Part shown: positions 317-29,262 of the stretch, piece after piece
Layout of the letters: each line of letters begins with the position of its first letter
How positions within the stretch are numbered: the first letter of the stretch is position 1
Assembly (NCBI GenBank): GCA_021158245.1
Contig: JAGGVB010000220.1
Coordinates: forward strand, 1 to 39,684
Reading direction: 5' to 3'
DNA: 39,684 bases
DNA from: a bacterium
GTDB taxonomy: Bacteria > Zhuqueibacterota > QNDG01
The notes under the pieces: model-generated
Told to the model about the DNA's origin: nothing
Databases searched by the model: none
What the model saw: the letters and a program-made list of their open reading frames with translations, nothing else
Translations under genes and position numbers: made by a program

Positions 317-625
317 GTGGCTGGTCAAACAATTCGCATCAAATTAAAAGCGTATGATCATAATCTCATAGATAAGTCAACTGAGAGAATTGTGAAAACC
401 GCAAAAACCACAGGAGCGGCAATCTCCGGACCGATTCCTCTGCCAACGCAGAAGACTATTTATACGGTTTTGAGATCACCGCACGTGGATAAGAAATCAA
501 GAGAACAGTTTGAGACGAGAATTCATAAGCGGCTTATAGATATTCTGAATGCATCACCTAAAACTGTTGATGCGTTAATGAAGCTTGAATTGCCGGCCGG
601 AGTCGATGTCGAAATAAAAGTATGA
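317..625 (+). CDS. rpsJ: 30S ribosomal protein S10
   Basis: S10 is a small-subunit protein of the 30S head that also serves in NusB-S10 antitermination in many bacteria. The 102-residue product has the standard length and the motifs [10 protein letters not shown] at the N-terminus and GPIPLPT near residue 39. The start is GTG at 317, ten bases after the Shine-Dalgarno sequence GAGGAG (301-306); no ATG in frame is near. It is the first gene of the S10 block and follows tuf. An unrelated antisense frame across its 3' end (523-720) is a shadow. Confidence 0.97.
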
Positions 626-647
626 GATTGTACAGGGATAACGTGAA

Positions 648-1262
648 ATGAGTGGTATTTTAGGGAAAAAAATTGGCATGACGCGTTTTTTTGATGAGTC
701 TGGCCGTTCAGTGTCAGCAACTCTCATTGAAGCGGGGCCATGCCCTGTAGTACAGGTAAAGACGAAAGAACAAGATGGTTACAGTGCTGTTCAGCTGGGT
801 TTTATCGAGCAGAAGGTTAAGCGGATAAATAAACCCAAATTGGGCCATTTTAAAAAGACTGATATTCCACCTCATAGAGTTCTTCGTGAATTTCGTGATT
901 TTGAGCTTGATGTCAAAGAAGGCGATAAGGTCAATGTAGATATCTTTAATGTAGGGCAGAAAGTGAAGATTACGGGAGTATCAAAGGGAGGCGGATTTGC
1001 CGGTGTTATGAAACGTCATGGTTTCAGCGGCGGCCCAAAATCGCACGGACAGTCGGACAGATTGCGAGCACCCGGTTCTATTGGACAGTCTGCGACCCCG
1101 AAACGGGTTATTAAGGGCATGAAAATGGCCGGACGTCGAGGGGGTAAACAGATTACTCTCAGGAACCTTGAAATCCTCAAAGTCATCCCCGACAGAAATC
1201 TCATCCTTGTCAAGGGTGGAGTCCCGGGTGCAAGAAACAGTATTTTGGAGATTCGGAATTAG
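648..1262 (+). CDS. rplC: 50S ribosomal protein L3
   Basis: L3 binds 23S rRNA early in 50S assembly and reaches the peptidyl-transferase region. The 204-residue protein opens with GILGKKIGMTRFF, has the central loop FAGVMKRHGFSGGPKSHG (near residue 115-135) that contacts the catalytic centre, and the GSIGQSATPKRV segment after it. ATG at 648 lies 22 bases after rpsJ with only a weak purine run (AGGGA) before it. It belongs to the same transcript as rpsJ and rplD. No oddities seen. Confidence 0.97.
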   Translation: MSGILGKKIGMTRFFDESGRSVSATLIEAGPCPVVQVKTKEQDGYSAVQLGFIEQKVKRINKPKLGHFKKTDIPPHRVLREFRDFELDVKEGDKVNVDIFNVGQKVKITGVSKGGGFAGVMKRHGFSGGPKSHGQSDRLRAPGSIGQSATPKRVIKGMKMAGRRGGKQITLRNLEILKVIPDRNLILVKGGVPGARNSILEIRN

Positions 1263-1285
1263 GGAAACAGCGAATAGGTGGTAGT

Positions 1286-1915
1286 GTGAAACTCGACGTA
1301 TATAAAATAGACGGTACCAAATCTGGTGAGCAGATAGAGCTCAACAGTAAAGTGTTCGGTATTGAACCAAATGATCATGCTATTTGGCAGGCAGTAACAA
1401 CCGAAGCATCTAATAAGAGGCTTGGGCTTTCAGCCACCAAAAACAGAGCATTGGTGAATGGCGGCGGTAAAAAACCCTGGAAACAAAAAGGGAGAGGTAC
1501 AGCGAGAGCAGGAACAATCCGTTCACCTTTGTGGGTCGGAGGAGGAAGAATTTTCGGGCCTGTTCCGCACACATATAAAAAAGCTTTGCCTAAAAAAGCA
1601 AAAAGGCTTGCAAAGTGCTCAGCTCTGTCGCATAAGACAAAAGAAAACAATATAATAGCAATTGAGGATTTTTCTTTTGATGCGCCAAAAACGAAAGATA
1701 TGTTCCTGATCCTGGACAAGCTGAACATGGAAGATAAGAAAGTGTTGTTATTGATTAATGAGACTGATAATAATGTGTATTTGTCCGGTCGGAATATAGC
1801 AAAATTTTATGTGAAAAGGGCAGCAGAGTTTTCTACATATGATGTTGTAAAAGCTGAAACTGTCCTGGTTCAAAAGAGTGCTATTCAAAAGTTAAATGAG
1901 GGCCTAAGCAAGTGA
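1286..1915 (+). CDS. rplD: 50S ribosomal protein L4
   Basis: L4 is an assembly protein of the 50S subunit whose loop lines the exit tunnel; in some bacteria it also represses the S10 operon. The 209-residue product contains the tunnel-loop signature [25 protein letters not shown] (residues about 65-90) and the [14 protein letters not shown] segment. It starts with GTG at 1286 and its TGA overlaps the rplW GTG by four bases, indicating translational coupling. Whether autogenous control by L4 exists here cannot be seen, because the leader lies upstream of the window. Confidence 0.97.
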
Positions 1916-4419: not shown

Positions 4420-4845
4420 ATGTTAATGCCGTCAAAGGTGAAATGGAGAAAACCACAACGCGGCCGAATGAGAGGAAAAGCTTACAGAGGTTCCAAGATT
4501 TCTTTCGGTACTTATGGTTTAAAGGCACAACAGCCGGGCTGGCTTACAAGCAGGCAGATTGAGGCTGCACGTGTTGCAATGACCAGGCATATAAAGCGTG
4601 GCGGTAAATTGTGGATAAGAGTGTTCCCGGATAAACCTGTTACCACTAAACCAGCAGAAACGCGTATGGGAAAAGGAAAAGGTGCACCGGAATTTTGGGT
4701 TGCTGTAATAAAGCCAGGTAGAATTCTATTTGAACTTGAGGGTGTACCGTTCAATACAGCAAAGGAGGCTTTACGACTTGCCTCGTATAAGTTGCCGTTA
4801 AAAACAAAGTTTGTTTCTACAATAAAAGAGGGGGACGAGTCGTGA
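4420..4845 (+). CDS. rplP: 50S ribosomal protein L16
   Basis: L16 organises the A-site tRNA elbow region of the 50S subunit. The 141-residue product has the N-terminus [18 protein letters not shown], the FGTYGLKA segment and [15 protein letters not shown] (near residue 86-100). ATG at 4420 is preceded by GAGGAG. The 65 bases between rpsC and this gene show no clear promoter or hairpin. Its stop overlaps the rpmC GTG. Confidence 0.97.
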
Positions 4846-5063
4846 TAAAGATGGACGAGATCCGGCAGATGCCTCTTGAGGAAATTAAGATTCGTTTGGA
4901 GGACACTGAAGAGGAGCTTTCAAATCTTCAATTTCAGCTTGCGCTTCATCAGTTGGATAATCCTCTTAAGGTTCGTAATTTGAGAAGGGATGTTGCTCGG
5001 CTGAGGACAGTTATCAGAGAGTATGAACTGGGACTTCGAATTGACAAGAAGCCTCAGGGCTGA
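4842..5063 (+). CDS. rpmC: 50S ribosomal protein L29
   Basis: L29 is a small two-helix protein beside L23 at the tunnel exit. The 73-residue product has the hallmark [26 protein letters not shown], at residues about 28-53. The GTG start at 4842 overlaps the rplP stop (GTGA) and has the Shine-Dalgarno run GAGGGGG seven bases upstream; the ATG at 4851 has none, so GTG is preferred. The last codons run into the rpsQ ribosome binding site. Confidence 0.95.
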
Positions 5064-5073
5064 GGAGAAGGGT

Positions 5074-5331
5074 ATGACCGGAAGATCACAGAGAAAGACA
5101 TTTGTAGGTAAAGTTGTAAGTAATAAGATGGATAAAAGTGTTACGGTAGAGGTAGTAAGGCGATTCCGCCATCCTCTATACGGTAAATTAGTTACAAAAA
5201 CAGCTAAGTTTATGGCTCATGATGAAGAGAATCAGTGTACAATCGGAGACACTGTACAAATAGCTGAAACGCGTCCGCTTAGTAAAAAGAAGCGGTGGCG
5301 TCTGGTGAAAATTATTAAAAAGGCACAATAA
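5074..5331 (+). CDS. rpsQ: 30S ribosomal protein S17
   Basis: S17 is an OB-fold primary binder of 16S rRNA in the 30S body. From ATG 5074 the product has 85 residues, with [18 protein letters not shown] near the start and the segment [11 protein letters not shown] near residue 66-76. A longer frame opens at 5023 inside rpmC, but ATG 5074 has the strong site GAGGAGAAGG immediately upstream and gives the family length, so it is taken as the real start. It is the last gene of the classical S10 block. Confidence 0.96.
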
Positions 5332-5352
5332 GGTTTACGGAGATAATATAGT

Positions 5353-5721
5353 ATGATTCAACAATATACACGATTAAATGTTGCCGATAATACCGGAGCC
5401 AAGAAAGTTCAGTGTATTAAAGTGCTGGGGGGATCAAAACGGCGTTACGGATCTGTAGGCGATATAATAGTAGTATCGGTTAAAAGTGCTATCCCCGGCG
5501 GTACTGTGAAAAAAGGTGAAATCAGCAAGGCAGTCATCGTCAGGACCAAAAAAGAAATTAACAGGAATGACGGAACTTATTTACGGTTTGATGATAATGC
5601 AGTGGTTTTGATCAATGATCAGGGTGAGCCGAAGGGAACGAGAATATTTGGGCCGGTGGCAAGAGAATTACGTGAGAAACAGTTTATGAAGATTGTTTCA
5701 TTGTCACCTGAAGTACTTTAA
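5353..5721 (+). CDS. rplN: 50S ribosomal protein L14
   Basis: L14 lies at the subunit interface, bridging to 16S rRNA, and is the docking site of the silencing factor RsfS. The 122-residue product has the standard length and sequence: [20 protein letters not shown] at the start, [19 protein letters not shown] near residue 50, and [14 protein letters not shown] near the end. It opens the spc block but is separated from rpsQ by only 21 bases, so no new promoter is apparent. Confidence 0.97.
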
Positions 5722-5742
5722 TTGGTGAGTGGAGTCAGCAGA

Positions 5743-16350: not shown

Positions 16351-17067
16351 TCAATTTCTTAATATCGCTTTACGTACAAATATATTTCCGTGCTTTACAA
16401 GCGTCTCTAATTCACTATTATCAAAAGTATCAAATCCGGGTAATGGTTTTAAAGTATTTTTGAAAATACAATTCTGAATAAACCACAAATCTGCTCCTCT
16501 AATCTTCCTGCCTATATCTTCTATTATAGCTTTATCGTGAAAGTTTTTAACAACAGTAGTTCTGAACTCATATTGTATATTCGACTGTAACAGAATTTCT
16601 ATTGAATGCAGTATGTTATTTATATCAGATTGAGAAACATCTCCGACAATTTTTTTATATGCAGCCAAAGATACGGATGTTTTTATATCCATGGCTATGT
16701 AGTCAATCAGATGATTTTGTATTAAATATTTTAGAGTTCGGGAGTCGGTTCCGTTAGTATCAAGCTTAACTTTAAAACCAAGTTCTTTGATGTTTTCTAT
16801 AAAGGGTATAATGCCTTGCTGCAAAGTAGGCTCCCCTCCGGTTATTGCAAGTGCGTCCAAAAGGCCTATGTTTTTTTTAAGGTAATTAATTACAGTTTCA
16901 GTACTGATAAGCTTTCTGCTGAATAGTTCGGGTAAGACAAGTTCTTTATTATGGCAGTAGAAACATCTGAAATTACATCCCTGTGTAAAAATTAAAGTAG
17001 CAATCTTCCCAGGATAATCAATAAATGATTGTTTATCCATTCCGGCAATTTTTAGACCGCTAATCAT
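16351..17067 (-). CDS. nrdG: Anaerobic ribonucleotide reductase activating protein (radical SAM)
   Basis: NrdG uses a [4Fe-4S] cluster and S-adenosylmethionine to install the glycyl radical on NrdD. The 238-residue protein has the cluster motif Cys31-x3-Cys35-x2-Cys38 within GCNFRCFYCHN, and the SAM-binding motif TGGEPTLQ near residue 95. It lies 15 bases after nrdD with AAAAAAGG before the ATG. The N-terminus SFIDYPGKIATLIFTQGC is typical of the longer NrdG type that accompanies ATP-cone NrdD enzymes. Confidence 0.94.
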   Translation of the reverse strand: MISGLKIAGMDKQSFIDYPGKIATLIFTQGCNFRCFYCHNKELVLPELFSRKLISTETVINYLKKNIGLLDALAITGGEPTLQQGIIPFIENIKELGFKVKLDTNGTDSRTLKYLIQNHLIDYIAMDIKTSVSLAAYKKIVGDVSQSDINNILHSIEILLQSNIQYEFRTTVVKNFHDKAIIEDIGRKIRGADLWFIQNCIFKNTLKPLPGFDTFDNSELETLVKHGNIFVRKAILRN

Positions 17068-17082
17068 AATATATAGCCTTTT

Positions 17083-19203
17083 TTAAAAAGGATTAGAAAA
17101 TGTTTCAAGGGACTTATCAAAAAGTTTTCTGTCGTTAAATTCAGATTGTTTTCCGTCATTCCATTGTTTTACAGGCCTTAAGTATCCAACTACACGTGAA
17201 TATACTTCACAGGAAGAAGAGCATTCAGGGCATTTATAGTGTTCTCCGTAAATATATCCGTGTTCGGGACATATGCTAAAAGTAGGAGTAATAGTAAAAT
17301 ACGGAAGTCTGAAATTATCTGTGACCTTTTTAATAAGATTTTTAATAGATTCAACCGGAATTTGTTTCTCTCCAATAAATCCGTGAAAGACAGTACCACC
17401 TGTGTATTTGGTTTGAAAATCATCCTGAATTCGCAATGCCTCAAATATATCATCTGTGTAATTAACAGGTAATTGGGAAGAATTAGTGTAGTATGGCTTT
17501 ATGCCGCTTTCAATTTCACTTTCATTTGCAACTATAATTTCTTTGAATTTGTTTTTATCTGTCATTGCAAGTTTAAAGGCTGTACCTTCGGCAGGTGTAG
17601 CTTCAAGATTATAAATATTTCCTGTATCCTGTTGATACTCAAATAATTTTTCTCGCATAAAGTCAAGAACTTTAAGTGCAAAGTCATGACCTTTCTGCTG
17701 AGTTATATCCTGTCCAAGAAAGTTAATACATGCTTCGTTCATCCCTATAAGCCCTATAGTAGAAAAGTGATTTGTCCAATATGAATTGTTACGTTTATAA
17801 ATATCTCTCAGGTAAAATTTAGCATATGGGAATAGGCCTTTGTCTGTAAGCTGTTCAAGAAGAGTACGCTTTGTTTCTAGGCTCTGTTTACCAATTTCCA
17901 TAATCTTATCAAGCCGCTGAAAGAAATCATCTTCATTTTTCGAAAGAAATCCGATGCGTGGAAGATTAATTGTAACAACCCCTATTGATCCTGTCAGAGG
18001 ATTTGCACCAAAAAGACCGCCTCCGCGTTTTTTAAGCTCCCTGTTATCTAATCTGAGGCGGCAGCACATACTTCTTACGTCATCGGGATTAAGGTCCGAA
18101 TTGACAAAATTAGAGAAGTATGGAATTCCATATCTTGCTGTCATATCCCAAACAGGATTTAAATTTTTATTATCCCAGTTAAAGTTTTTTGTGATATTAT
18201 AAGTGGGAATTGGAAAAGTGAATACTCTTCCCATTGCATCACCCTCTACCATGACTTCGGCAAAACAGCGGTTTAAAAGATCCATTTCCTTCTGAAAATC
18301 ACTATATGTCTTATTACCGGGAATCCCTCCGATTATGACAGGCTGATTTCTTAAGAAATCAGGGACATAAAGATCCATCGTGATATTTGTAAATGGTGTT
18401 TGAAATCCAACTCTTGTAGGAATGTTAATATTAAAAATAAACTCCTGAAGAGTCTGCTTTACTTCAGTATAGGATAGATTATCATAAAAAATAAATGGTG
18501 CGAGAAGAGTATCGAAATTTGAAAAGGCCTGTGCACCGGCAGCTTCTCCCTGAAGTGTATAGAAAAAGTTTACAATTTGTCCTAGAATTGATCTGAAGTG
18601 TTTTGCAGGTTTACTTTCAATCTTACCTTGCACACCCTTAAATCCGCTAAGCAGAAGATCCTGAAGATCCCACCCAACGCAGTAAACACTGAGTGTACCA
18701 AGATCATGAATGTGCATGTCTCCTGATTCGTGGGCTTCTCTTACTTCTTCAGAGTATATTTGATTGAGCCAGTATTGAGAGCTGATTATGGAAGAGATGT
18801 GAAAATTCAATCCTTGTAATGAGTATGCCATATTTGCATTCTCTTTTACTTTCCAGTCTTTTTGATCAAGATAATCATCAATTATTTTAATATTACTGAA
18901 AAGGTCCTTTATATTTCGTATGTTTTTGTGCTGTTCTCTGTAAAGAATATATGATTTTGCGAGCTTGGAATTACGGGTTTCTATCAAAACCTGTTCAACA
19001 ATGTCCTGAATTTTTTCAATATCAATCATTGATTTATTTTTAAAATTTTCATTAATCCGGGCAACCACTCTATCAGCAACGCGCTCAGACAATTCTCTTT
19101 CAGGCTGCTTTATTGCTCTTGTAGCCCTGAAAATAGCAAAAGCAATTTTCTCAGAGTCAAATTTTACTATTTTCCCGTCTCTTTTTCTTACTTTTGTAAT
19201 CAT
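17083..19203 (-). CDS. nrdD: Anaerobic (class III) ribonucleoside-triphosphate reductase
   Basis: NrdD reduces ribonucleotides to deoxyribonucleotides with an oxygen-sensitive glycyl radical. The 706-residue protein starts with an ATP-cone regulatory domain (VRKRDGKIVKFDSEKIAFAI, residues 1-90). The C-terminal zinc site uses Cys645, Cys658, Cys661 and Cys665, followed by the glycyl-radical motif RVVGYLRPV with Gly673 as the likely radical residue. Its presence indicates at least facultative anaerobic growth. It lies 79 bases downstream of the second receptor gene on the same strand; no NrdR box was recognised in that gap. Confidence 0.96.
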   Translation of the reverse strand: MITKVRKRDGKIVKFDSEKIAFAIFRATRAIKQPERELSERVADRVVARINENFKNKSMIDIEKIQDIVEQVLIETRNSKLAKSYILYREQHKNIRNIKDLFSNIKIIDDYLDQKDWKVKENANMAYSLQGLNFHISSIISSQYWLNQIYSEEVREAHESGDMHIHDLGTLSVYCVGWDLQDLLLSGFKGVQGKIESKPAKHFRSILGQIVNFFYTLQGEAAGAQAFSNFDTLLAPFIFYDNLSYTEVKQTLQEFIFNINIPTRVGFQTPFTNITMDLYVPDFLRNQPVIIGGIPGNKTYSDFQKEMDLLNRCFAEVMVEGDAMGRVFTFPIPTYNITKNFNWDNKNLNPVWDMTARYGIPYFSNFVNSDLNPDDVRSMCCRLRLDNRELKKRGGGLFGANPLTGSIGVVTINLPRIGFLSKNEDDFFQRLDKIMEIGKQSLETKRTLLEQLTDKGLFPYAKFYLRDIYKRNNSYWTNHFSTIGLIGMNEACINFLGQDITQQKGHDFALKVLDFMREKLFEYQQDTGNIYNLEATPAEGTAFKLAMTDKNKFKEIIVANESEIESGIKPYYTNSSQLPVNYTDDIFEALRIQDDFQTKYTGGTVFHGFIGEKQIPVESIKNLIKKVTDNFRLPYFTITPTFSICPEHGYIYGEHYKCPECSSSCEVYSRVVGYLRPVKQWNDGKQSEFNDRKLFDKSLETFSNPF

Positions 19204-19282: not shown

Positions 19283-21133
19283 TCAATCAAAGAGTTCCCA
19301 CAGTAATCCAAAACGGAAGGAACGCTCAGGCAAGTATTGAATGCTTGAAATGAAGGGATCAATACTTGATATATTGGTTAATTCAAGAGTTACATGAGCA
19401 TAGTCCATCACAGTAAAAAGAGCTTTAATATTAAAAATCATTCCGTTCGGAACAGTTATAAGATTCAGATAATCTCCGTAATTCCAGTCATAAATATAAT
19501 ATGAAGACCAGTATCTAACAGATGCTGCAAGAATACCGTTAATGTCGCCCTGGAAAAATCTATATTTAATAAAAACACCTAAATTGCCTGTAATATTTGC
19601 TGGTTTGAGCCTAAATGAAACTGCCTTTAAAAAGATGGTATTTATTGATATCAGACCGAAATATTTTAGTATATCTGTTCTGGCAAATGATTCGATTCCG
19701 GTAAATTGATTTTTTCCTTTATTTGTATACTGAATTCCCGTCTGAGTCAATTCAGGTAAAATTATGTTAGAAGTCGTCTTATTGAAAAAAGAGAGGGAGG
19801 ATTTGAATCCGGGCCCTTTATTATAATTCAAGGACAGGTCTGTTGTAAAAATTGATTCCGGCTTAATGTTATTATTGATGTTGTAGTGATTATTTAACAT
19901 TGAAAGATTGAAAAAAAGCGAGGAGACCGGTGCGGAATCATAAATAGTAATACCGGAAATTTCCGAAAGAGTAGGATCCCGGAATAATTTCGAAAAAGTA
20001 GCCGCAACATTAAGCCGATTATTACTTAAATTAAACTTGTACCGGCTCCATAATCCGAAGTAGAGTTTTTTATTTCCGGAAATTTGGGGAAGAATTTTAA
20101 CAAATAATTTTGTTTTTGGAAAAATGGTAAAATTTGTAAGCAGGTATCCACTAATGTTAGAATTAGTGATTTTTACTGTATCTCCGACAGATGCATTTTG
20201 ATAAAGATATTTCAGGCCAAAGTAGAAAGGAACATGCATTAAAGATTTTTGCGCCTGGAATGAAAGGCCGTATGCAGCATCCTTAATTACATGCTTATTA
20301 TCAGAATCGGTATCTTTAAATTCAAAATTTCCCGATAGTTTATGCAGGGATATTTCTGGCTTTAATCCCGATGAATCATTTTTTATAACGACAATATGAT
20401 TTGTGGAAATATTTTTCTGATGGGGTTTGTTCAGAATTACAGTATCTGCAGGTACAACCATTGATTTGGAAAGATAGATATCACCTTTGGATGATAAAAT
20501 GGTATAATCAGCATTCCAGTTTTTAGAAATATTTATATGGGAAGAAAAGGAAATGTTCTGATATTTATTTTGGGTACCGTCATTTATATTATTGTATGTT
20601 CTTGAGGAAAAACCTGAAAGGTATCGGAAAGATGTGAATAAAGGCTGCCCGAAGGTAGCGCCGAATGAGCTCTCAACTCCAGTGTTGAAGTGGTACAGCG
20701 CCCTGGTGTAAGGCTGATCTCCAGGAACGGATAAAGGCTGAAGGCTTAATGTGTTGGGATTTCCAAAAATATCTATGTGATCATAATTTTCCGCTTTGCT
20801 AATTAAATCAGGAGTAATCATGTGCAGGTTAAATCTGCCTGTAAAAGGGTCATTTAAATTAATTCCATCAAAATTTATTTTCGAAGCCGAAGGCAACGCT
20901 CCCCTTACTCCGGCATAAAGTGGGCTGCCCGGAGAAAAATTTGTTCTCCACGAAGTAACCGGAATATTTAAAATAAAATCACAAAAATCAGTAAAGCTTA
21001 CAGGAGCAATATCGATTTTTTTAATAGCTGCTTTATTATTTACTGAGTCAGATTTTGAAACAGTTTGAGAGAATATCAAAGATTGATGAAAAAGTACAAC
21101 AAAAACAAGAAATTTCAGAACATATTTGCTCAT
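19283..21133 (-). CDS. Outer-membrane TonB-dependent-receptor-like barrel with a reduced plug
   Basis: The 616-residue product has a signal peptide (residues 1-22), then a short plug-like region with RGALPSASKINFDGINLNDP and NLHMITPDLISKAE (residues about 85-130), and a long series of alternating amphipathic strands to the C-terminus (FRFGLLWELFD). Ordinary plugs continue with an RGxxSxLYGxxAxGGVINI segment, which is missing. Its ATG overlaps the stop of the preceding S-component gene in ATGA, so the two are translationally coupled. Placement in a vitamin B12 locus suggests uptake of B12 or another cofactor, but the substrate is unknown. A non-transporting barrel is also possible. Confidence 0.7.
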   Translation of the reverse strand: MSKYVLKFLVFVVLFHQSLIFSQTVSKSDSVNNKAAIKKIDIAPVSFTDFCDFILNIPVTSWRTNFSPGSPLYAGVRGALPSASKINFDGINLNDPFTGRFNLHMITPDLISKAENYDHIDIFGNPNTLSLQPLSVPGDQPYTRALYHFNTGVESSFGATFGQPLFTSFRYLSGFSSRTYNNINDGTQNKYQNISFSSHINISKNWNADYTILSSKGDIYLSKSMVVPADTVILNKPHQKNISTNHIVVIKNDSSGLKPEISLHKLSGNFEFKDTDSDNKHVIKDAAYGLSFQAQKSLMHVPFYFGLKYLYQNASVGDTVKITNSNISGYLLTNFTIFPKTKLFVKILPQISGNKKLYFGLWSRYKFNLSNNRLNVAATFSKLFRDPTLSEISGITIYDSAPVSSLFFNLSMLNNHYNINNNIKPESIFTTDLSLNYNKGPGFKSSLSFFNKTTSNIILPELTQTGIQYTNKGKNQFTGIESFARTDILKYFGLISINTIFLKAVSFRLKPANITGNLGVFIKYRFFQGDINGILAASVRYWSSYYIYDWNYGDYLNLITVPNGMIFNIKALFTVMDYAHVTLELTNISSIDPFISSIQYLPERSFRFGLLWELFD

Positions 21134-21711
21134 ATTGGTAATGCTCCCTTTTTACTTTTAAAAACAGAAGTTTTTGAAGAGGCAGTTATTATGGCAGGTA
21201 CAATAGTCGAAAAAATAAGCGTGTTGCTGATTATATGTAAAAGATTAAAACCAATTCCGCTAATAATTGCTGCAATTCTTCCGGAACGGTCAAGGCCTAT
21301 GAGGAATACAAAGGAGAGGGTTGTTAAAAGAGCAAATACCGATGTTAAAATACCTCCTGCTGCAGCAAGAACAATTGGGAATTTCCATGACTTTAAATTA
21401 ATGTCGCTGATGAGTCCGCCTGTAAATCCAATTAAAGCCATTGAAATTATTTGGGCAATAAAAAGAGGAGGAGCAGCAATTCCAAATGGGTTAAACAGGG
21501 AGTAAATGCTTTCTGTTAATAATCCGATAATTATACCTTTTTGCTTTCCAAGAAGAAAGCCTCCGGTAAAAATTGTTGCACTTACCAGTTCGATATTAGG
21601 AATGTTGAACAGAGCAAAGCCAAGAGCAACCCCAAGCGCTGTAAAACCTCCAATGTGAATGATGTCACTGACAGAGCCTGCCGTATTATTTTTGGACTTG
21701 TATTTCTGCAT
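21130..21711 (-). CDS. ECF-type transporter S component (substrate-binding membrane protein)
   Basis: S components are small inner-membrane proteins that bind a vitamin and dock on an energy-coupling EcfAA'T module. This 193-residue protein has five to six hydrophobic helices; helix 1 contains ALGVA, matching the AxxxA docking motif, and helix 3 onward has IGLLTESIYSLFNPFGIAAPPLFIAQ. The start is placed at ATG 21711 (GGAG five bases upstream) rather than the earlier frame opening. No EcfA or EcfT gene lies nearby, so it would use a shared module. Cobalamin or a precursor is the inferred substrate from context only. Confidence 0.75.
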   Translation of the reverse strand: MQKYKSKNNTAGSVSDIIHIGGFTALGVALGFALFNIPNIELVSATIFTGGFLLGKQKGIIIGLLTESIYSLFNPFGIAAPPLFIAQIISMALIGFTGGLISDINLKSWKFPIVLAAAGGILTSVFALLTTLSFVFLIGLDRSGRIAAIISGIGFNLLHIISNTLIFSTIVPAIITASSKTSVFKSKKGALPI

Positions 21712-21719
21712 TTTTGCTC

Positions 21720-21756
21720 CCGAATAAATGTAGTGTGTAAAAGGGCAATAAGTCAA
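21720..21756 (-). promoter_or_regulatory. Candidate sigma-70-like promoter for the S-component/receptor pair
   Basis: On the - strand TTGACT (complement of 21751-21756) is followed after 18 bases by TACATT (complement of 21727-21732). It lies between the terminator that closes the beta-propeller gene and the ATG at 21711. The leader would be very short (about ten bases) and contain just the GGAG ribosome binding site. Two other promoters in this window use the same TACATT element. Confidence 0.4.
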
Positions 21757-21767
21757 GTTGCAATTAT

Positions 21768-21816
21768 AAAAAAACAAGGGCGGTAAATTTTTATTTCTTT
21801 ATAAAATGTACCGCCC
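21768..21816 (-). terminator. Intrinsic terminator closing the riboswitch-controlled receptor/beta-propeller unit
   Basis: The transcript of the - strand folds GGGCGGTA (complement of 21809-21816) with TACCGCCC (complement of 21778-21785), extended inside by ATTTT/AAAAT pairs, and runs into TTGTTTTTTT. It begins ten bases after the end of the beta-propeller gene and separates that unit from the S-component pair. Confidence 0.88.
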
Positions 21817-21825
21817 TGCAGCAGT

Positions 21826-23754
21826 TTAAAACATAAGTATCATTTTTTTAGTGATTATGCTGTTGTTTGTTTCAAGACGGTAAAAATAAATTCCACTTGA
21901 AACAAGCGTTCCTGTCATGTCTGTTGCATTCCATTTTAGGGAATGATTCCCTGCTGGCATTCTACTGTCAATCAAAGTTTTAATGTGCTGCCCCAAAGAG
22001 TTGAAAACAGAAAGTTTAACATGCGACTCTGAAGGAATTCTATATGAGATTATTGTTTCTGAGTTAAAAGGATTCGGATAGTTCTGGCTGAGTGTGAAAT
22101 TTTCCGGTGAAGCAGCAGCATAATCTTTGATTCCTGTAAAGGCTTCGGAATTAACAGCTGCGACAGCATCAATAGCAAAAGTTCCATCATCCTGTGCAAT
22201 TTGTCCGCAGTCCTTTATTTTGACAAAGGATGCCCATGATAAACCAACATCTGAAAGATCAAAGCTGTCTCCCCCTGAAATATCCGGATTCAACGGAGAT
22301 GTCCAGTCAGCAGTAGGAGTAAGCCCGCAGAATCCTGTAAGGGATGCTGCATTGTATGCAAAATCATACCATGTTGTGCCGTCCTGGCTGACTGAAACAA
22401 TGCCTGCTTTTGCTTCAATGGAAGAATCTGTCTTTGAATAGTTTGCATTGCCGAATATTGTAAAGTCAGGCCCTGAATTATTTATTATATGATTATTTGT
22501 AAATTTTACGATGATTTCTCCTTCATTGCCGAGGCTGAGAAATTCTTCAGGATTAAAAATAGGACTTACCGATTGAGGGCAGAATGCCTGGCCGGGTTTA
22601 CCAAGAATGTTTTCAGGGAAAAAATTCTGCCCCAGTCCGCTGCAAGTTGTGCCTTGTGTAAATTCTGTTACCTCGTCAGCCCACGGGTCAGAATCAGAAA
22701 CGGGATATGTCTTTACAAGATCAAGAGTACCGTTCCCAACAACACCTGAAACCCATACAATACTGTCAGCGCTGACCTCAAATTTTTGTACTGATCCGTC
22801 TCCGGCCCATACTTTCATTGTAGGTATCCAAATTACATCTTTTTCAGCGTCATAATATAATCTTGAAACATTCGGCCCCACAAGAATAGGATTAGAATCA
22901 GAGTGAATTACTGTGCCTGAAATAGCATCGTATTCATATAAAAACCCGTTTGTTTCGTCACCCCATGCAACGCAGTATCCCTTTCCCCCTTTTGTGATAA
23001 TAATATCTCCTGCGGATCCTCCTATTGAAATTGTATCAATAACAGCCGGCGGGGTCTGCATTGGGTCAATAACAGCAACAGAAGTAAATACAGAAGCATA
23101 GTCTCCGGTACATAGAACGTGAATTTTTCCCAATGGGTCAATTGCAAAATCCTGCGGATTCAGAGGAACGCTTATTGTATATTCCACTGAATCTGTAATA
23201 GTGTTAATCACAGATACAGTGCCGGGGTCGTAACTTCCCCATCCTATCAGCCCCGTGTTTGCAACATAAGCATAATTCCCATTTAATTCAGACCCGAAAA
23301 ACAGCACTCCCTGGGGCGCTTTTCCAACTTCAATGGTTTTTGCAATAGTGTTTGTTTCTGTGTTTATTACTGATACAGTACCGGCAATATTATTTGAGAC
23401 GTAAATTTTATTGTGCCCTACAACTGCAAGGTCATAAGGATTGGAACCTGTAGGAAGAGTGATAATATCAGAATATGCGTTATCAGAAGCAGGATTAAGT
23501 ATCCTGATATCATCGGTGCCTGAATTTACAAGAAAAATATTGTTTCTGTAATAAACCATTTCATTAGGTGTCTGGCCTGTTGCAAGAAAATTTAGTGTAA
23601 TCGTATTTGTATTCAGATTAAGTTTTGAAAGTGTCTCTGCAGATCCGTTAGTGATATAGAGATACTCGTCAGCTGCAGCAAAAGAGGTGGCTGATAACAA
23701 TGTTATGAATAATATCAGAATTTTTTTGACGTTCGTGTGTAGCGATTTTTCCAT
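21826..23754 (-). CDS. Secreted YVTN beta-propeller protein with extra domain and C-terminal sorting tail (BtuG-like candidate)
   Basis: The 642-residue product has a signal peptide (1-28), a YncE/YVTN beta-propeller (about 33-350, repeats such as KIYVSNNIAGTVSVINTETN), a second domain (about 361-549) with SLGNEGEIIVKF, DFTIFGNA and GIVSVSQDGTTWYDF, and a FlgD-like/T9SS type A tail (550-642) with NYPNPFN, GIYFYRL and TKKM. Bacteroides B12 loci encode the surface propeller BtuG, a lipoprotein that hands cobalamin to BtuB. Here the gene follows a BtuB-like receptor under a cobalamin riboswitch, so a similar capture role is inferred. ATG 23754 is chosen for its AAGGAG site; the longer frame overlaps the receptor gene. 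Confidence 0.82.
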   Translation of the reverse strand: MEKSLHTNVKKILILFITLLSATSFAAADEYLYITNGSAETLSKLNLNTNTITLNFLATGQTPNEMVYYRNNIFLVNSGTDDIRILNPASDNAYSDIITLPTGSNPYDLAVVGHNKIYVSNNIAGTVSVINTETNTIAKTIEVGKAPQGVLFFGSELNGNYAYVANTGLIGWGSYDPGTVSVINTITDSVEYTISVPLNPQDFAIDPLGKIHVLCTGDYASVFTSVAVIDPMQTPPAVIDTISIGGSAGDIIITKGGKGYCVAWGDETNGFLYEYDAISGTVIHSDSNPILVGPNVSRLYYDAEKDVIWIPTMKVWAGDGSVQKFEVSADSIVWVSGVVGNGTLDLVKTYPVSDSDPWADEVTEFTQGTTCSGLGQNFFPENILGKPGQAFCPQSVSPIFNPEEFLSLGNEGEIIVKFTNNHIINNSGPDFTIFGNANYSKTDSSIEAKAGIVSVSQDGTTWYDFAYNAASLTGFCGLTPTADWTSPLNPDISGGDSFDLSDVGLSWASFVKIKDCGQIAQDDGTFAIDAVAAVNSEAFTGIKDYAAASPENFTLSQNYPNPFNSETIISYRIPSESHVKLSVFNSLGQHIKTLIDSRMPAGNHSLKWNATDMTGTLVSSGIYFYRLETNNSIITKKMILMF

Positions 23755-23776
23755 TTCTTTACTCCTTCTTTTTTGA

Positions 23777-25969
23777 CTATAGATTAAGATTAAAAACAAT
23801 TTGCCATGTTCTGCCTTTTGCAGGCATATCCCTTACTGTCTGATATTTTTTATCTAACAAATTGTAAACAGATAAATTCAACCTTATGTTGTGATTTGAC
23901 AACTTTATAAGTTTCTCAAATGAAAGGTCAATAATTGAGTATGGATCGAGAGGAATTGTATTGGCTTCATTTACATATCTTATTCCTGAATATTGATAGT
24001 AAACAGAGGCTTTTACCCACGGCTCAGTAATGTGAAATCCTGATTTTAGAAGTTTTTGTGCTCTGTATGGAAGTATCATGCCTTGTGTTGTTATATTATT
24101 ATCTTTTTGAACCGGGCTAACATTGGTTTGTGATAAAGTAAATTTTATATTACGGATATTAAGTTCAAAATTATACTCGGTACCTTCTATTTCAGCATTG
24201 GTATTATAGGGCCTGAAAACTTCAAAGCTTCCAAGACGCCATACAATGAGGTTTTGAATTTTATTATAAAAATGGGACGCTTCGGCTTTAATATTAATAT
24301 GGTTTAAGGCGATAAAAAATCCCGCACCTGCAAGAATGCTTTTGCCTCTTTCAGGGAGCAGATCAGGCTTGCCCTGTATTCTGAAATCCTGATAAAAGAG
24401 GTCTGCAAAAGTCGGAACTCGGAAGGATTTTGAAAATATGGTATTGGTAAACAATTTTGATTTTTTGCCAATGGTAAATGATATGCCTGCAGACGGGCTC
24501 AGTTGTTTTTCTCTGCGCTCCTGGTTATGACTTTTTAATGAAAATATATCGTAATGCAATGAGGATTGAAGTGTTGCTTTCATAAAAGAAAATAGGTGGC
24601 GGTTTAGTTCTGCGGTGCAGAAAATTGTGGCAGACCTGTCAGTTGCGTCATCAATACTGTTTGCGGAGGGGGAGAGGAGGTTTTCATCTGAAAACGAGAG
24701 GTCTTTAAGATTTATCCCTGCCTGGAGTGAAGCCTTATTAAAGGGTGAATAAACAATTTTTGAATCAGCACCTAATATCAACACTCTGTTTATATAATTA
24801 TAGGCAGGGTAACGTCTGTATTTTAAAGGTGCATTTTCAGGAAGAATATTTTTGTTTTCTGACTTCCTGTCTGATATATAAATATTAAAATTCGTGTAAA
24901 AAGAGCTGCAAATAAATTTATAAGTCAAATCAGCTTTTTTATGTGTACGTGTGGTTCTTGCATACGGAGTAAGAGAGTAAACTTTTCCGGGAAGGCCGCG
25001 GCCTGAGTGGTTTAAGAATACAGATAGTTTGATCTTGTTCTTTTCTGTTGAGTATCCTGTCTTTAACAATATGTTACTGTTTGTAATGTCATTGTTTCTG
25101 CGTATATCTGAAATTTTTGTAGAATCTGCAAGATTATACGAATAAGGAAAATTATTGCCTGAGTACCTGTACATGGCGCTAATCAGGTAATTGAATCTGC
25201 CTTTTAATCCTCCGGAATTAAAAGCAAGGCTGCAATCGGAAAAGGATCCCCCTGATAAAGTTAAATTCCTGTTTGAATCAGCGGCTTTTTTGGTGATAAT
25301 GTTCACTGCACCGCTGATTGCACCTGATCCGAATTTCCAGGATGCACCGCTTTTGTATATCTCAATATGGTCAATGATATTCAGAGGAATATCTGTGATA
25401 TCAGTTATACCGGATAAATTATTGCTGAGAGGAACTCCGTCAATTAATATTAAAATATGCTGGGGAAGGCTGCCCCGAATAGATATTGTTGATGAGTTTC
25501 CCGATTGAACTGTTACGCCCTGTATGTGGCGGAACAGATTGGGCAGGTTAGTTGCTCCGCTTGCCTGAATCTGTTTTAATGTAATTATTTTTTTATCTTC
25601 AGTTAATATTAAGCTGTTTCTGTCTTCAATAATTGAAATTTCATTTAACGGGAGAACAACCTGAGTCATCCCGATATTTAAATTGGCAGGAAGACCGTTT
25701 CTTACAATAATTCCGGTAATTTCAGCAGTTTTGTATCCAATGTGCTGAGCGGTAATTGAGTATGTGCCATTGATTAAATTCTCAAAAGAGAAGTTGCCGA
25801 ACATGTCGGCGACAGTTCCTTTGTTGCTGCCGTTTATAATAATATTAGTCCCGGGCAGAGGATTCCCAGTTGCAGAATCAAAGACTCGCCCTTTAATTTT
25901 CATAGCAGACTGCGCCAGGATTACGGCAGGAATAAAAAACAGAATAATGTATATTTTAAAGATTTTCAT
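23777..25969 (-). CDS. btuB: TonB-dependent outer-membrane receptor, probable cobalamin receptor (BtuB-like)
   Basis: The 730-residue protein has a signal peptide (1-20), a CarboxypepD_reg-like beta-sandwich (about 25-105, KGRVFDSATGNPLPGTNIIING), a plug (about 110-235) with SIRGSLPQHILILIDGVPLSNN and the closing GAISGAVNIITKK, and a 22-strand-type barrel to the end. The start at 25969 has GGGAG just upstream; an earlier in-frame ATG at 26065 lies inside the riboswitch expression platform and is rejected. Direct placement behind a cobalamin riboswitch supports B12 or corrinoid transport, energised by TonB. The symbol reflects context, not a substrate-specific motif. Confidence 0.85.
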   Translation of the reverse strand: MKIFKIYIILFFIPAVILAQSAMKIKGRVFDSATGNPLPGTNIIINGSNKGTVADMFGNFSFENLINGTYSITAQHIGYKTAEITGIIVRNGLPANLNIGMTQVVLPLNEISIIEDRNSLILTEDKKIITLKQIQASGATNLPNLFRHIQGVTVQSGNSSTISIRGSLPQHILILIDGVPLSNNLSGITDITDIPLNIIDHIEIYKSGASWKFGSGAISGAVNIITKKAADSNRNLTLSGGSFSDCSLAFNSGGLKGRFNYLISAMYRYSGNNFPYSYNLADSTKISDIRRNNDITNSNILLKTGYSTEKNKIKLSVFLNHSGRGLPGKVYSLTPYARTTRTHKKADLTYKFICSSFYTNFNIYISDRKSENKNILPENAPLKYRRYPAYNYINRVLILGADSKIVYSPFNKASLQAGINLKDLSFSDENLLSPSANSIDDATDRSATIFCTAELNRHLFSFMKATLQSSLHYDIFSLKSHNQERREKQLSPSAGISFTIGKKSKLFTNTIFSKSFRVPTFADLFYQDFRIQGKPDLLPERGKSILAGAGFFIALNHINIKAEASHFYNKIQNLIVWRLGSFEVFRPYNTNAEIEGTEYNFELNIRNIKFTLSQTNVSPVQKDNNITTQGMILPYRAQKLLKSGFHITEPWVKASVYYQYSGIRYVNEANTIPLDPYSIIDLSFEKLIKLSNHNIRLNLSVYNLLDKKYQTVRDMPAKGRTWQIVFNLNL

Positions 25970-26088
25970 TTTCTCCCAAAAGGGAGGGTGAAGCTGAGCT
26001 GCGGCATAAAAAAACCCAGCCTTGAGGAGACCGGGTTTAAATTTTAACCTGGAAACTTGCCTCACCCTCGAAGGCAGTTAATTCTCTG
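25970..26088 (-). promoter_or_regulatory. Riboswitch expression platform: antisequester, terminator and SD hairpin
   Basis: In the - strand transcript GAGGGTGA (complement of 26062-26069) can pair with TCACCCTC (complement of 25984-25991), 70 bases downstream. Between them is an intrinsic terminator. After them CTCCC-TTTT-GGGAG (complement of 25973-25986) is a hairpin that holds the GGGAG ribosome binding site of the receptor gene, three bases from its ATG. Pairing of the first two segments would break up that hairpin, so this looks like combined transcriptional and translational control. Confidence 0.6.
26008..26038 (-). terminator. Riboswitch-associated intrinsic terminator
   Basis: The - strand transcript has AAACCCGG (complement of 26031-26038) pairing with CTGGGTTT (complement of 26012-26019), with one G-U pair and an 11-base loop, ending in seven T (complement of 26008-26014). 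It lies between the cobalamin aptamer and the receptor gene, the normal place for a ligand-dependent terminator. Confidence 0.75.
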
Positions 26089-26253
26089 ACGATATGGCAG
26101 GTTTCCTGACTCTGGGCATCAGACCTACTAATTTTGCCTTCCCATTCATTTCTGAAAAGTGGCTGTTAAAATTTTCGTATCCCATTACAGTAGCGGGGCT
26201 GCAGCGGATTTTAACCGCTTTCCCTTTTAACCCGTTTCCGGGCACCATCTCGT
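26089..26253 (-). promoter_or_regulatory. Cobalamin (B12) riboswitch aptamer
   Basis: The - strand shows the ordered conserved blocks of the cobalamin aptamer: GGTGCC (complement of 26241-26246), AAAGGGAA, a GGTTAAAATCC block, GCAGCCCCGCTACTGTAATGG (complement of 26182-26202), GCCACT (complement of 26158-26163), GGGAAGGC, and the closing B12-box region ending in GTCAGGAAACCTGCC near 26097-26111. A closing stem can form between ACGAGAT and ATATCGT at the two ends. It precedes the BtuB-like gene, and is expected to repress it when adenosyl- or other cobalamins are plentiful. Confidence 0.95.
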
Positions 26254-26406
26254 GTGTGTTAAAGAACAATTGTTAAAAAGAACTTAATAAATGAATTTTA
26301 CAGATGCAAGTCTTTTTTATCCGTTTTTGATTGTAATCCCATATTAAAAGTGTTTGATTTTATTCCTATTTTCTTTATTTTTACTATAATTACGGAGAAT
26401 TGTATA

Positions 26407-29262
26407 ATGCTGAAAAATATTCTGGGAAAGACAGTTTTTGTTGTAATGCTTTTTATTCTTTCCGGCAGCAGTACTGCTCAGTATTACTTCGGCAGGAATA
26501 AGATTCAATACAACAGCTTCAAATGGCAGATACTTAAAACAGAGCATTTTGATATTTATTACTATCCTGAGATGGAATCACTTGCAGAGATAGGTGCGTA
26601 TTTTGCCGAGGAAAGTTATACTTTTTTGCAGGATAAAATGAATATAACTATTTTACGAAGAATACCTCTGATTTTTTACAGCTCTCATTTCCATTTTGAA
26701 GAAACTAATACCGTGCCCAATCTTATCCCGGAAGGCGTAGGAGGATTCTTTGAATTTATGAAGGGACGCGTTGTTGTACCTAATAACGGTTCTTTAAGTA
26801 AATTTAAAAATACAATCCGACATGAGTTGGTTCACGTATTCCAAAAGAGTTATACAAATCAGGTATTGAAGAGCCATAAATGTTCTCTTGAAGGAGGGCC
26901 ACCTCTCTGGTTTGTTGAAGGCCTTGCCGAATACTGGTCAGAAAGGTGGAGCCCCGAAGCTGAAATGGTAATACGTGATTGTGTGCTGAATAACAGCATG
27001 GTTCCTCTTAACAGAATGGGAGCAATATGGGGTACATATCTTATGTACAAGGAGGGGCAGTCAGTACTTACATATATATCAAAAAAATATGGAGAAGAGC
27101 AGATTCTTGCGTTGATGGACAATGTCTGGAAGTACAAAGATTTTTCCCGTGTAATGAAAGCAACAATAGGGAAAGATTATAAATCGCTAAGTGAAGAGTG
27201 GTTATATTCGCTTAAAAAGCATTTTTATCCGTTAATAGAAGACCACGATTTCCCACGTATGGCAGCAAGCAGAATCACAAACAGGGGATACAATTCTTTG
27301 CCTGCATTTTATCGGTATAATGGAGTACCAAAAGTTATTTTTGTTGCAAATCGTAACGGATACTCAAGCATCTATCAAAAAAAATTAAACAGTTCGGAAC
27401 AGAATAACCCTGAGGTTTTAGTACAGGGTGAAAAGAGTGCGAACCTTGAATCTTTTCATATATTAAGCAGTAAAGTGGATATAAGCAGGAACAACAATTT
27501 GGCCTTTATTGCAAAGAGCGGCCCGCGAGACAGGCTGTATATAATGGATTTGGCAACGAGGGAAATAATAAGAAAGCTTGATTTTAAAAATCTGGTTTCT
27601 ATTTTTTCTCCGTCATGGTCTCCTGACGGTGAAGCAGTAGTCTTCTCAGCCCTTAACCAGGCAGGTATGAGTGATATATACAAAGCTGATATTGAGACAG
27701 GGTCATTAAAACGCCTTACAAGCGATTTTTATACAGACAGTGATCCTGACTGGTCTCCTGATGGCAATTATATTGTATTTAGTTCTGACAGAACATATCT
27801 TGGGTACAACGGATATAAAAATATCTTTTTATATGAGATAAAGACAGGGATAGTCAGATACCTTACTTACGGAAGGGTTCATGATGCAAGCCCGGTATGG
27901 TCTCCTGACGGTAATTACATCGCTTTTGCTTCAGATAGAAAGGGAGCATCAAATATCTGGATCATTGAGAAAGCCGATCTTAAAAAATCCATTTTGGGAA
28001 ACAATTACTCTCCATTTGTGAAAAATGACGGGGGAATAGCAAAGGTGAAACAGGTTACTAATTTCTCCGCAGGATGTTTTTATCCCTCATGGACTGACAG
28101 CCTTGATATTATTTTTACAACTTATGAGAGAGGAAGTTTCCAGTTAAGAGAAATTGCGTTCGGAAAGAAAAAACTGAACAGGATAAAATCTGTTAAAATA
28201 GAGAGCCCGGAGTATAATAGCAAACCATGGAAAATAAACAGAATAAGCGGCAAGAAGAGGATAAACAGATTTGCATACAGAAAAAAGTTTAATCTTGATT
28301 TTGCCCAGAGTATGATTATTCAGGATCCCATTTTTGGTACAAGCGGAGGTGCACAGCTTGCGGTTTCCGATATGCTGGGTGATGAGAAGTACTATTTCCT
28401 TCTTTACAATAATGCCAGAACCCAGTCGGATTTGTGGAAGGGATTTAATTTTGCAGTAACAAGACTTGACATGAGCCGCAGAATCAATTATTCCCTTGGG
28501 TTTTACCGTCTTGCAGGGTATTATTATAACCCATATGATGATTTTTATTATGAGAACAGATACGGAGTGAACGGGGCTGTCATCTATCCCTTGAATAAGT
28601 TTGAACGAATAGAACTGAGCATGAACATCCGTCATTCTGATAAGGATTGGTACACAGGAGAAGGCACAAGAAAAGCACTGCTTGTGTCAAATTTTATATC
28701 CTACACAAAAGACAATTCATTGTGGGGGAGCACCGGGCCGATTGACGGAGCTCGTTATAAGATTACACTTGGAAATACAGTTGATGTCCGGTACTCCAAT
28801 GTAAACTTTACAACTCTTATTTTTGATTTAAGAAAATATTTCAGAATCGCTTACCGTATGTGCCATGCGGTCAGAGTCCTTGGTGAATTCAACAGAGGCA
28901 AAGAGCCGCTGCCGTTTTTCCTTGGCGGTTCATGGAGTATGCGAGGATACAGATTGTGGTCTCTTGCTGCACCGAATGTCGCGTTTATCTCCAATGAATT
29001 CAGATTTCCTTTTATTGATACATTTTATCTGAGATTTCCATTCGGAGGTATAGGATTCAGTTCGATTCAGGGAGCGCTTTTTGTTGATGCGGGAAACAGC
29101 TGGGAAGGAAAATTACAGGGAATAAAAGGAAGCTTCGGTGCAGGGATAAGGCTTAGGCTTGGGGGATACGTTGTTTTACGGTATGATATAGGAAGGAGAA
29201 CGGATTTTCACAGTATAGAGAAAAAGACTTTTACACAGTTCTTTTTTGGCTGGGATTTTTAA
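26407..29262 (+). CDS. Surface protein: MA-type metallopeptidase, TolB-like propeller and outer-membrane barrel
   Basis: The 951-residue product has a signal peptide (about 1-24), a gluzincin-type peptidase domain with HELVH at 139-143 and a likely third zinc ligand in EGLAEYWSE (171-178), PD40/TolB-like blades with SPSWSPDGEAVVFSA, DPDWSPDGNYIVFSSDR and SPVWSPDGNYIAFASDR (about 330-560), and a C-terminal part (about 620-951) with amphipathic strands, LGGSWSMRGYR and a terminal FFGWDF like Omp85/surface-antigen barrels. ATG 26407 has GGAG nine bases upstream. It is divergent from the B12 riboswitch. The role is unknown; proteolysis at the cell surface is the simplest reading. Confidence 0.8.
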   Translation: MLKNILGKTVFVVMLFILSGSSTAQYYFGRNKIQYNSFKWQILKTEHFDIYYYPEMESLAEIGAYFAEESYTFLQDKMNITILRRIPLIFYSSHFHFEETNTVPNLIPEGVGGFFEFMKGRVVVPNNGSLSKFKNTIRHELVHVFQKSYTNQVLKSHKCSLEGGPPLWFVEGLAEYWSERWSPEAEMVIRDCVLNNSMVPLNRMGAIWGTYLMYKEGQSVLTYISKKYGEEQILALMDNVWKYKDFSRVMKATIGKDYKSLSEEWLYSLKKHFYPLIEDHDFPRMAASRITNRGYNSLPAFYRYNGVPKVIFVANRNGYSSIYQKKLNSSEQNNPEVLVQGEKSANLESFHILSSKVDISRNNNLAFIAKSGPRDRLYIMDLATREIIRKLDFKNLVSIFSPSWSPDGEAVVFSALNQAGMSDIYKADIETGSLKRLTSDFYTDSDPDWSPDGNYIVFSSDRTYLGYNGYKNIFLYEIKTGIVRYLTYGRVHDASPVWSPDGNYIAFASDRKGASNIWIIEKADLKKSILGNNYSPFVKNDGGIAKVKQVTNFSAGCFYPSWTDSLDIIFTTYERGSFQLREIAFGKKKLNRIKSVKIESPEYNSKPWKINRISGKKRINRFAYRKKFNLDFAQSMIIQDPIFGTSGGAQLAVSDMLGDEKYYFLLYNNARTQSDLWKGFNFAVTRLDMSRRINYSLGFYRLAGYYYNPYDDFYYENRYGVNGAVIYPLNKFERIELSMNIRHSDKDWYTGEGTRKALLVSNFISYTKDNSLWGSTGPIDGARYKITLGNTVDVRYSNVNFTTLIFDLRKYFRIAYRMCHAVRVLGEFNRGKEPLPFFLGGSWSMRGYRLWSLAAPNVAFISNEFRFPFIDTFYLRFPFGGIGFSSIQGALFVDAGNSWEGKLQGIKGSFGAGIRLRLGGYVVLRYDIGRRTDFHSIEKKTFTQFFFGWDF

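Follow-up and report, generated by a model that had tools for sequence, protein, structure and literature searches.

A cobalamin riboswitch-linked putative operon encoding a BtuGH-like fusion protein with a type IX secretion tail in a bacterium of the Zhuqueibacterota

Organization of the locus

The window, meaning the whole 39,684-nucleotide stretch analysed in this study (contig JAGGVB010000220.1), carries on its minus strand a cobalamin riboswitch, a gene for a TonB-dependent receptor, and a gene for a protein with a signal peptide, a YVTN propeller, a second domain, and a C-terminal tail. The initial annotation had named all of these elements, and all were confirmed. The unit that it delimited, 21826-26253, contains the genes as listed, but the end at 26253 omits 11 bases of the riboswitch, and the operon runs on past the other end, with same-strand genes continuing down to 16351 and gaps of -4 to 79 bases between them. 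The features are the following:

26264-26079 (-), cobalamin riboswitch aptamer RF00174 (Rfam, 115.5 bits against a gathering score of 31.5)
26038-26012 (-), intrinsic-terminator-like hairpin with U-run, an 11-pair stem followed by TTTTATG (consensus match only)
23777-25969 (-), BtuB-like TonB-dependent receptor that has a CarboxypepD_reg domain at its N-terminus, together with Plug and TonB barrel domains (Pfam)
21826-23754 (-), predicted secreted BtuG-BtuH-like fusion protein with type IX tail, 642 aa from its ATG
22720-23670 (-), within the fusion gene, BtuG-like beta-propeller (ORF residues 44-360; profile matches to BtuG1-3 structures)
22156-22689 (-), within the fusion gene, BtuH-like second domain (ORF residues 371-548; no Pfam family)
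21829-22107 (-), within the fusion gene, type IX secretion C-terminal sorting domain (ORF residues 565-657)
21130-21777 (-), ECF transporter S-component (PF12822, 32.3 against a cut-off of 30.7)
19283-21133 (-), second TonB-receptor-like beta-barrel (weak Plug match)
17083-19203 (-), NrdD, class III B12-independent ribonucleotide reductase (NF006126, 1101 bits)
16351-17067 (-), NrdG2, NrdD activating enzyme (TIGR02495, 198 bits against a cut-off of 131)

The aptamer matches RF00174 over its full length (model positions 1-189) and is the sole RNA that Rfam detects in the window; no second cobalamin riboswitch was detected in the draft genome (3.2 Mb, 95% complete), leaving the window copy as the only one. 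By sequence and fold, the terminator-like hairpin sits between the aptamer and the preferred receptor start, and it is the likely expression platform; this position of an 11-pair stem with a U-run makes transcription termination the likely mode of control. The receptor ORF opens at GTG 26065, inside the expression platform, and the ATG at 25969, which follows GGGAG, is the preferred start. The best NCBIfam model on the receptor is TonB-B12, at 139.9 bits, which misses the curated cut-off of 599.7 by far, and NCBIfam heme receptor models match as well; because the score lies under the TonB-B12 equivalog cut-off, the name is restricted to "BtuB-like." Matches to the receptor in the PDB include B. 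theta BtuB1 (8blw_A), over residues 166-758, most of the chain.

Homologues of the S-component in related genomes sit immediately downstream of cobalamin riboswitches, and homologues of the second barrel travel with them; a corrinoid is the likely substrate of the S-component. The genome also encodes the class II B12-dependent reductase NrdJ outside the window, six B12-binding domains, and a CbiQ-type ECF transmembrane component. CbiC was not found in this genome, a 95% draft that could miss a gene. A genome with NrdJ and without detected CbiC fits a B12 scavenger. Divergently transcribed from the operon, at 26350-29262 (+), is a gene for a 970-aa protein with a peptidase-like domain, TolB-like PD40 repeats, and an Omp85-like C-terminal barrel.

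Propeller, second domain, and tail of the fusion protein

The fusion gene begins at ATG 23754, behind AAGGAG and 22 bases past the receptor gene. Its product is arranged as a signal peptide (judged by eye), YVTN propeller, second domain, and T9SS tail. No cysteine occurs in the first 214 of the 642 residues counted from this ATG, so the protein has no lipobox; the lipobox cysteine of BtuG and BtuGH surface lipoproteins is thus missing, and a T9SS tail is present instead. Pfam DUF5074 falls narrowly under its cut-off on this protein (26.4 versus 27.2). An AlphaFold2 model built with 30 homologue sequences has a mean pLDDT of 87, mostly above 90 in the propeller region. In a Foldseek search of the PDB with the whole model, the top match is 8blw_B, BtuGH (BtuG1) of B. 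theta (E 1.5e-22, 646 columns), which bears out the BtuG-like fold that had been proposed; the places after it are mostly taken by other BtuG entries, and the propeller has a TMt of 0.78 to BtuG 8ptd. Pairwise identity to BtuGH is low, at 16-25%. Profile comparison of the family with a Bacteroides finegoldii BtuGH-type protein by hhalign gave 98.1% probability (E 8.3e-14, 378 columns), with an alignment that is collinear through both domains.

Pfam found no convincing family for the second domain in any of 30 members. Modelled alone, the domain has BtuG1 as its best fold match (E 8e-6), followed by F5/8-C discoidin and CBM32-like folds, and a viral structure library returned discoidin-like matches only, an uninformative result. 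A sequence search of the PDB gave a marginal match to BtuG1 (E 0.0046), which reached E 0.00012 with a more diverse profile, and the region of BtuG1 matched by the family profile is the position of its fused BtuH domain. Comparison with BtuH domains had been suggested in the initial annotation. The set used here was drawn from plasmid records of Bacteroides finegoldii and Persicobacter and comprised one protein of the BtuGH type, one homologue of BtuH2, and one BtuH-type protein that stands alone; hhalign gave 94.9% probability and E 4.5e-8, against E 0.019 for the best of 100 column shuffles and E 0.064 for the reversed alignment. The homology is strong only in the N-terminal half of the domain, which the alignment mainly covers. 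These comparisons relate the second domain to the B12-binding BtuH domain.

BtuH2 contacts B12 through Gln333, Asn399, Phe401, His476, Tyr510, Trp511, Trp577, and Leu578, with Asn399 contacting the phosphate (PMC8941943). The B. finegoldii BtuH2 homologue has all eight contact letters at these residue numbers. Asn399, in the motif GNAF, aligns with an Asn that is invariant in both family alignments. The position equivalent to Phe401 is Phe in about 90% of the family, Asn in the window (GNANY), and Ser in B. theta BtuG1 (GNASY). Contacts near His476, Tyr510, Trp511, and Trp577 are outside the alignable part of the domain. DUF4465 (BtuJ) was rejected as the identity of the second domain: the B12-binding jelly-roll proteins of that family are likewise beta-rich surface domains of B12 loci (PMC13398666), but 0 of 30 second-domain members match Pfam DUF4465.

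A divergent BtuH-like domain was also seen fused to an OmpA-like C-terminus, with dgt-like and glmU-like genes adjoining (locus L195 at 4776-5738 (-) and locus L196 at 438-1397 (+)). Of these copies, one is in the window's own genome and one in a genome of the same genus; neither has a riboswitch and both have lost the ligand-contact Asn. The fold family extends beyond B12 loci, and since these copies lack both features, the fold alone is no proof of B12 binding.

The tail scores above the cut-offs of both Por_Secre_tail (33.1 versus 27) and TIGR04183 (43 versus 23 bits). The genome encodes SprA (SprA_N, E 6.7e-43) and PorU (820.8 bits against a cut-off of 420), together with about 40 other tail-like stretches. 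Por_Secre_tail, the signal peptide seen by eye, and type IX machinery in the genome are the marks of a T9SS type A cargo protein. With these and with no lipobox, the earlier suggestion of a type IX-like tail in place of a lipid anchor held. Its other reading of the tail, as FlgD-like, was rejected, as FlgD_ig scores 30.9, slightly under Por_Secre_tail, and T9SS machinery is present.

Recurrence in other genomes

Homologues of the fusion protein occur in 35 of 82 genomes of the same phylum, and 28 of them (the window included) match approximately the whole query of propeller plus second domain; all 28 two-domain proteins bear the type IX tail. A cobalamin riboswitch lies 0.2-3.4 kb upstream on the same strand for 30 of the 35, and the other five are at contig ends, so that the linkage to cobalamin riboswitches and btuB-like genes anticipated in the initial annotation recurs in every phylum member in which it could be tested. 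In three phylum genomes the protein is split, with the order riboswitch, second domain plus tail, and receptor, and a separate propeller gene downstream. One relative (G002) has a propeller and tail without the second domain.

Among GTDB genomes, the best 80 of 333 stretches encoding relatives of the second domain were kept. Of 32 loci tested outside the phylum, a status assigned by our own judgement, 29 are preceded on the same strand by a cobalamin riboswitch that Rfam detects. The remaining loci, which have the second domain and no detected riboswitch, are L154, L155, and L156. The gene order relative to receptor and riboswitch is conserved both within the phylum and outside it. In these outside genomes the second domain is mostly a gene of its own: by our grouping of the best 80 of 333, it is unfused in 52 of 54 loci, of which 43 have a gene for a receptor or a propeller no more than 1.5 kb away, and fused in two, from genomes titled Zixiibacteriota and Gemmatimonadota. 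Standalone second-domain genes directly downstream of cobalamin riboswitches occur in several lineages. That the parts are separate neighbours in some lineages and a single chain in others argues that they work together. In Fermentibacteria/Sabulitectum, eight loci (L114, L126, L128, L130, L136, and L139-L141) combine a riboswitch, a propeller gene, and a BtuH-like gene; no receptor gene was detected near them with the receptor profile used.

Relation to known cobalamin capture proteins

In B. theta, BtuGH (formerly BtuG1) is a lipoprotein that joins a BtuG and a BtuH domain; both domains bind cobalamin on their own, and BtuH is proposed to hand it to BtuBG (PMC12751083). BtuG of the same species covers BtuB as a lid. 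The ligands of BtuG2 include both cobalamin and cobinamide (PMC10404256). The window protein resembles BtuGH (BT_1490, PDB 8blw chain B) in placing a BtuH-type domain behind a BtuG-type propeller within a single secreted chain, and in having its gene beside that of a BtuB-type receptor at a locus for B12 transport (PMC10404256, PMC12751083); the B. finegoldii BtuGH homologue also follows its receptor gene in the same order. The two differ in that BtuGH is an N-terminally lipidated surface lipoprotein, while the window protein, from a different phylum, ends in a type IX tail and has no lipobox, and its sequence similarity to BtuGH is distant. The surface lipoproteins BtuG2 and BtuG3 share the propeller fold, the BtuB-type receptor as partner, and the setting in a B12 locus, but have a lipid anchor and no second domain. 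BtuH1 and BtuH2 have a homologous domain with the Asn399 position kept; BtuH2 differs in having Ig-like PKD domains and no propeller. Because the lipid-anchor feature was tested and is missing, the window protein is not classed as a BtuG lipoprotein, and it is a homologous BtuGH variant with a different predicted route of export and anchoring; the unit most likely functions as the B. theta system does. The whole-model and profile matches to BtuGH mean that the fusion itself is known, so the different architecture envisaged in the initial annotation is only partly different: B. theta already provides a described example of the BtuG-BtuH fusion (PMC10404256, PMC12751083), while the T9SS tail without a lipobox and the host lineages are new. 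A literature search for cobalamin riboswitch and DUF5074 together found nothing, and among the matches listed for BtuG and T9SS together, both words occur only in one Bacteroidota BAM paper.

The unit is very probably a scavenging operon under repression by B12, with a T9SS-secreted form of BtuGH at its centre; corrinoid binding, hand-off, and surface anchoring are predicted properties. It is unlikely that the propeller alone binds the corrinoid and that the second domain is an accessory beta-sandwich with a structural, glycan-docking, or receptor-docking role, as in discoidin and CBM32 domains. The F5/8-C and CBM32 folds that follow BtuGH among the matches would suit such a role, as would the relative that lacks the domain and the OmpA-fused copy outside B12 loci. 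However, the domain is homologous to one that binds B12, standalone genes for it lie directly behind cobalamin riboswitches in several lineages, and the ligand-contact Asn that is lost in the OmpA-fused copies is invariant in the copies from B12 loci.

The receptor also matches heme receptor models, and BtuG2 takes cobinamide besides cobalamin (PMC10404256). That another corrinoid-like compound or tetrapyrrole, such as cobinamide or heme, is bound rather than complete cobalamin is nevertheless very unlikely, given that the regulator is a full cobalamin riboswitch and that TonB-B12 scores best on the receptor; binding of several corrinoids would still be compatible with the scavenging operon. 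For the propeller, the top scorer by sequence profile is the archaeal YVTN surface-layer protein 1l0q (135 versus 85 bits), which could point to a generic surface-layer-like protein, adhesive or structural, that merely shares the operon. The score of 1l0q is summed over repeats, however, and by structure BtuGH outranks it; with the conserved order of riboswitch, receptor, and propeller within the phylum and beyond, such a bystander is very unlikely.

The wider reading, that BtuG-BtuH capture is a broad system of many phyla and not an invention of gut Bacteroides, with parts that are neighbouring or fused and a type IX-anchored form in the KSB1/Calditrichota-like lineage, is moderately probable. 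It would extend BtuG/BtuH-type capture to little-known phyla without earlier reports of such catchers; riboswitch-linked loci were found in genomes titled KSB1, Caldithrix, Zixiibacteriota, Gemmatimonadota, Fermentibacteria, Melioribacteraceae, Chlorobiota, Binatia, and Deltaproteobacteria. It would also give a likely function to a domain without a Pfam family. If the anchoring is C-terminal and type IX-dependent, the receptor lid would hinge from the opposite end of the protein compared with Bacteroides, and the occurrence of both domains under an N-terminal lipid anchor in one case and under a C-terminal type IX anchor in the other would constitute a natural experiment on anchoring.

As a scavenging operon, the unit would respond to corrinoid scarcity when the riboswitch lets a presumably single transcript pass its terminator. 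The receptor would be inserted into the outer membrane. Sec would take the fusion protein across the inner membrane, and the type IX system would take it across the outer membrane and probably hold it at the surface by its C-terminus. Corrinoid caught by the BtuH-like domain may then be passed to the BtuG-like propeller, acting as a lid on the BtuB-like receptor, with TonB-driven uptake next, and the S-component from the same operon would carry its presumed corrinoid substrate over the inner membrane. NrdD and NrdG2 would provide a B12-independent supply of deoxynucleotides during starvation of the class II enzyme, which requires B12. In Propionibacterium acnes, the class III genes nrdDG are under a cobalamin riboswitch and NrdJ is also present (PMC3848588); the window differs in that nrdDG comes last in an uptake operon. 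In one relative (L087), NrdD-NrdG2 has its own cobalamin riboswitch directly upstream.
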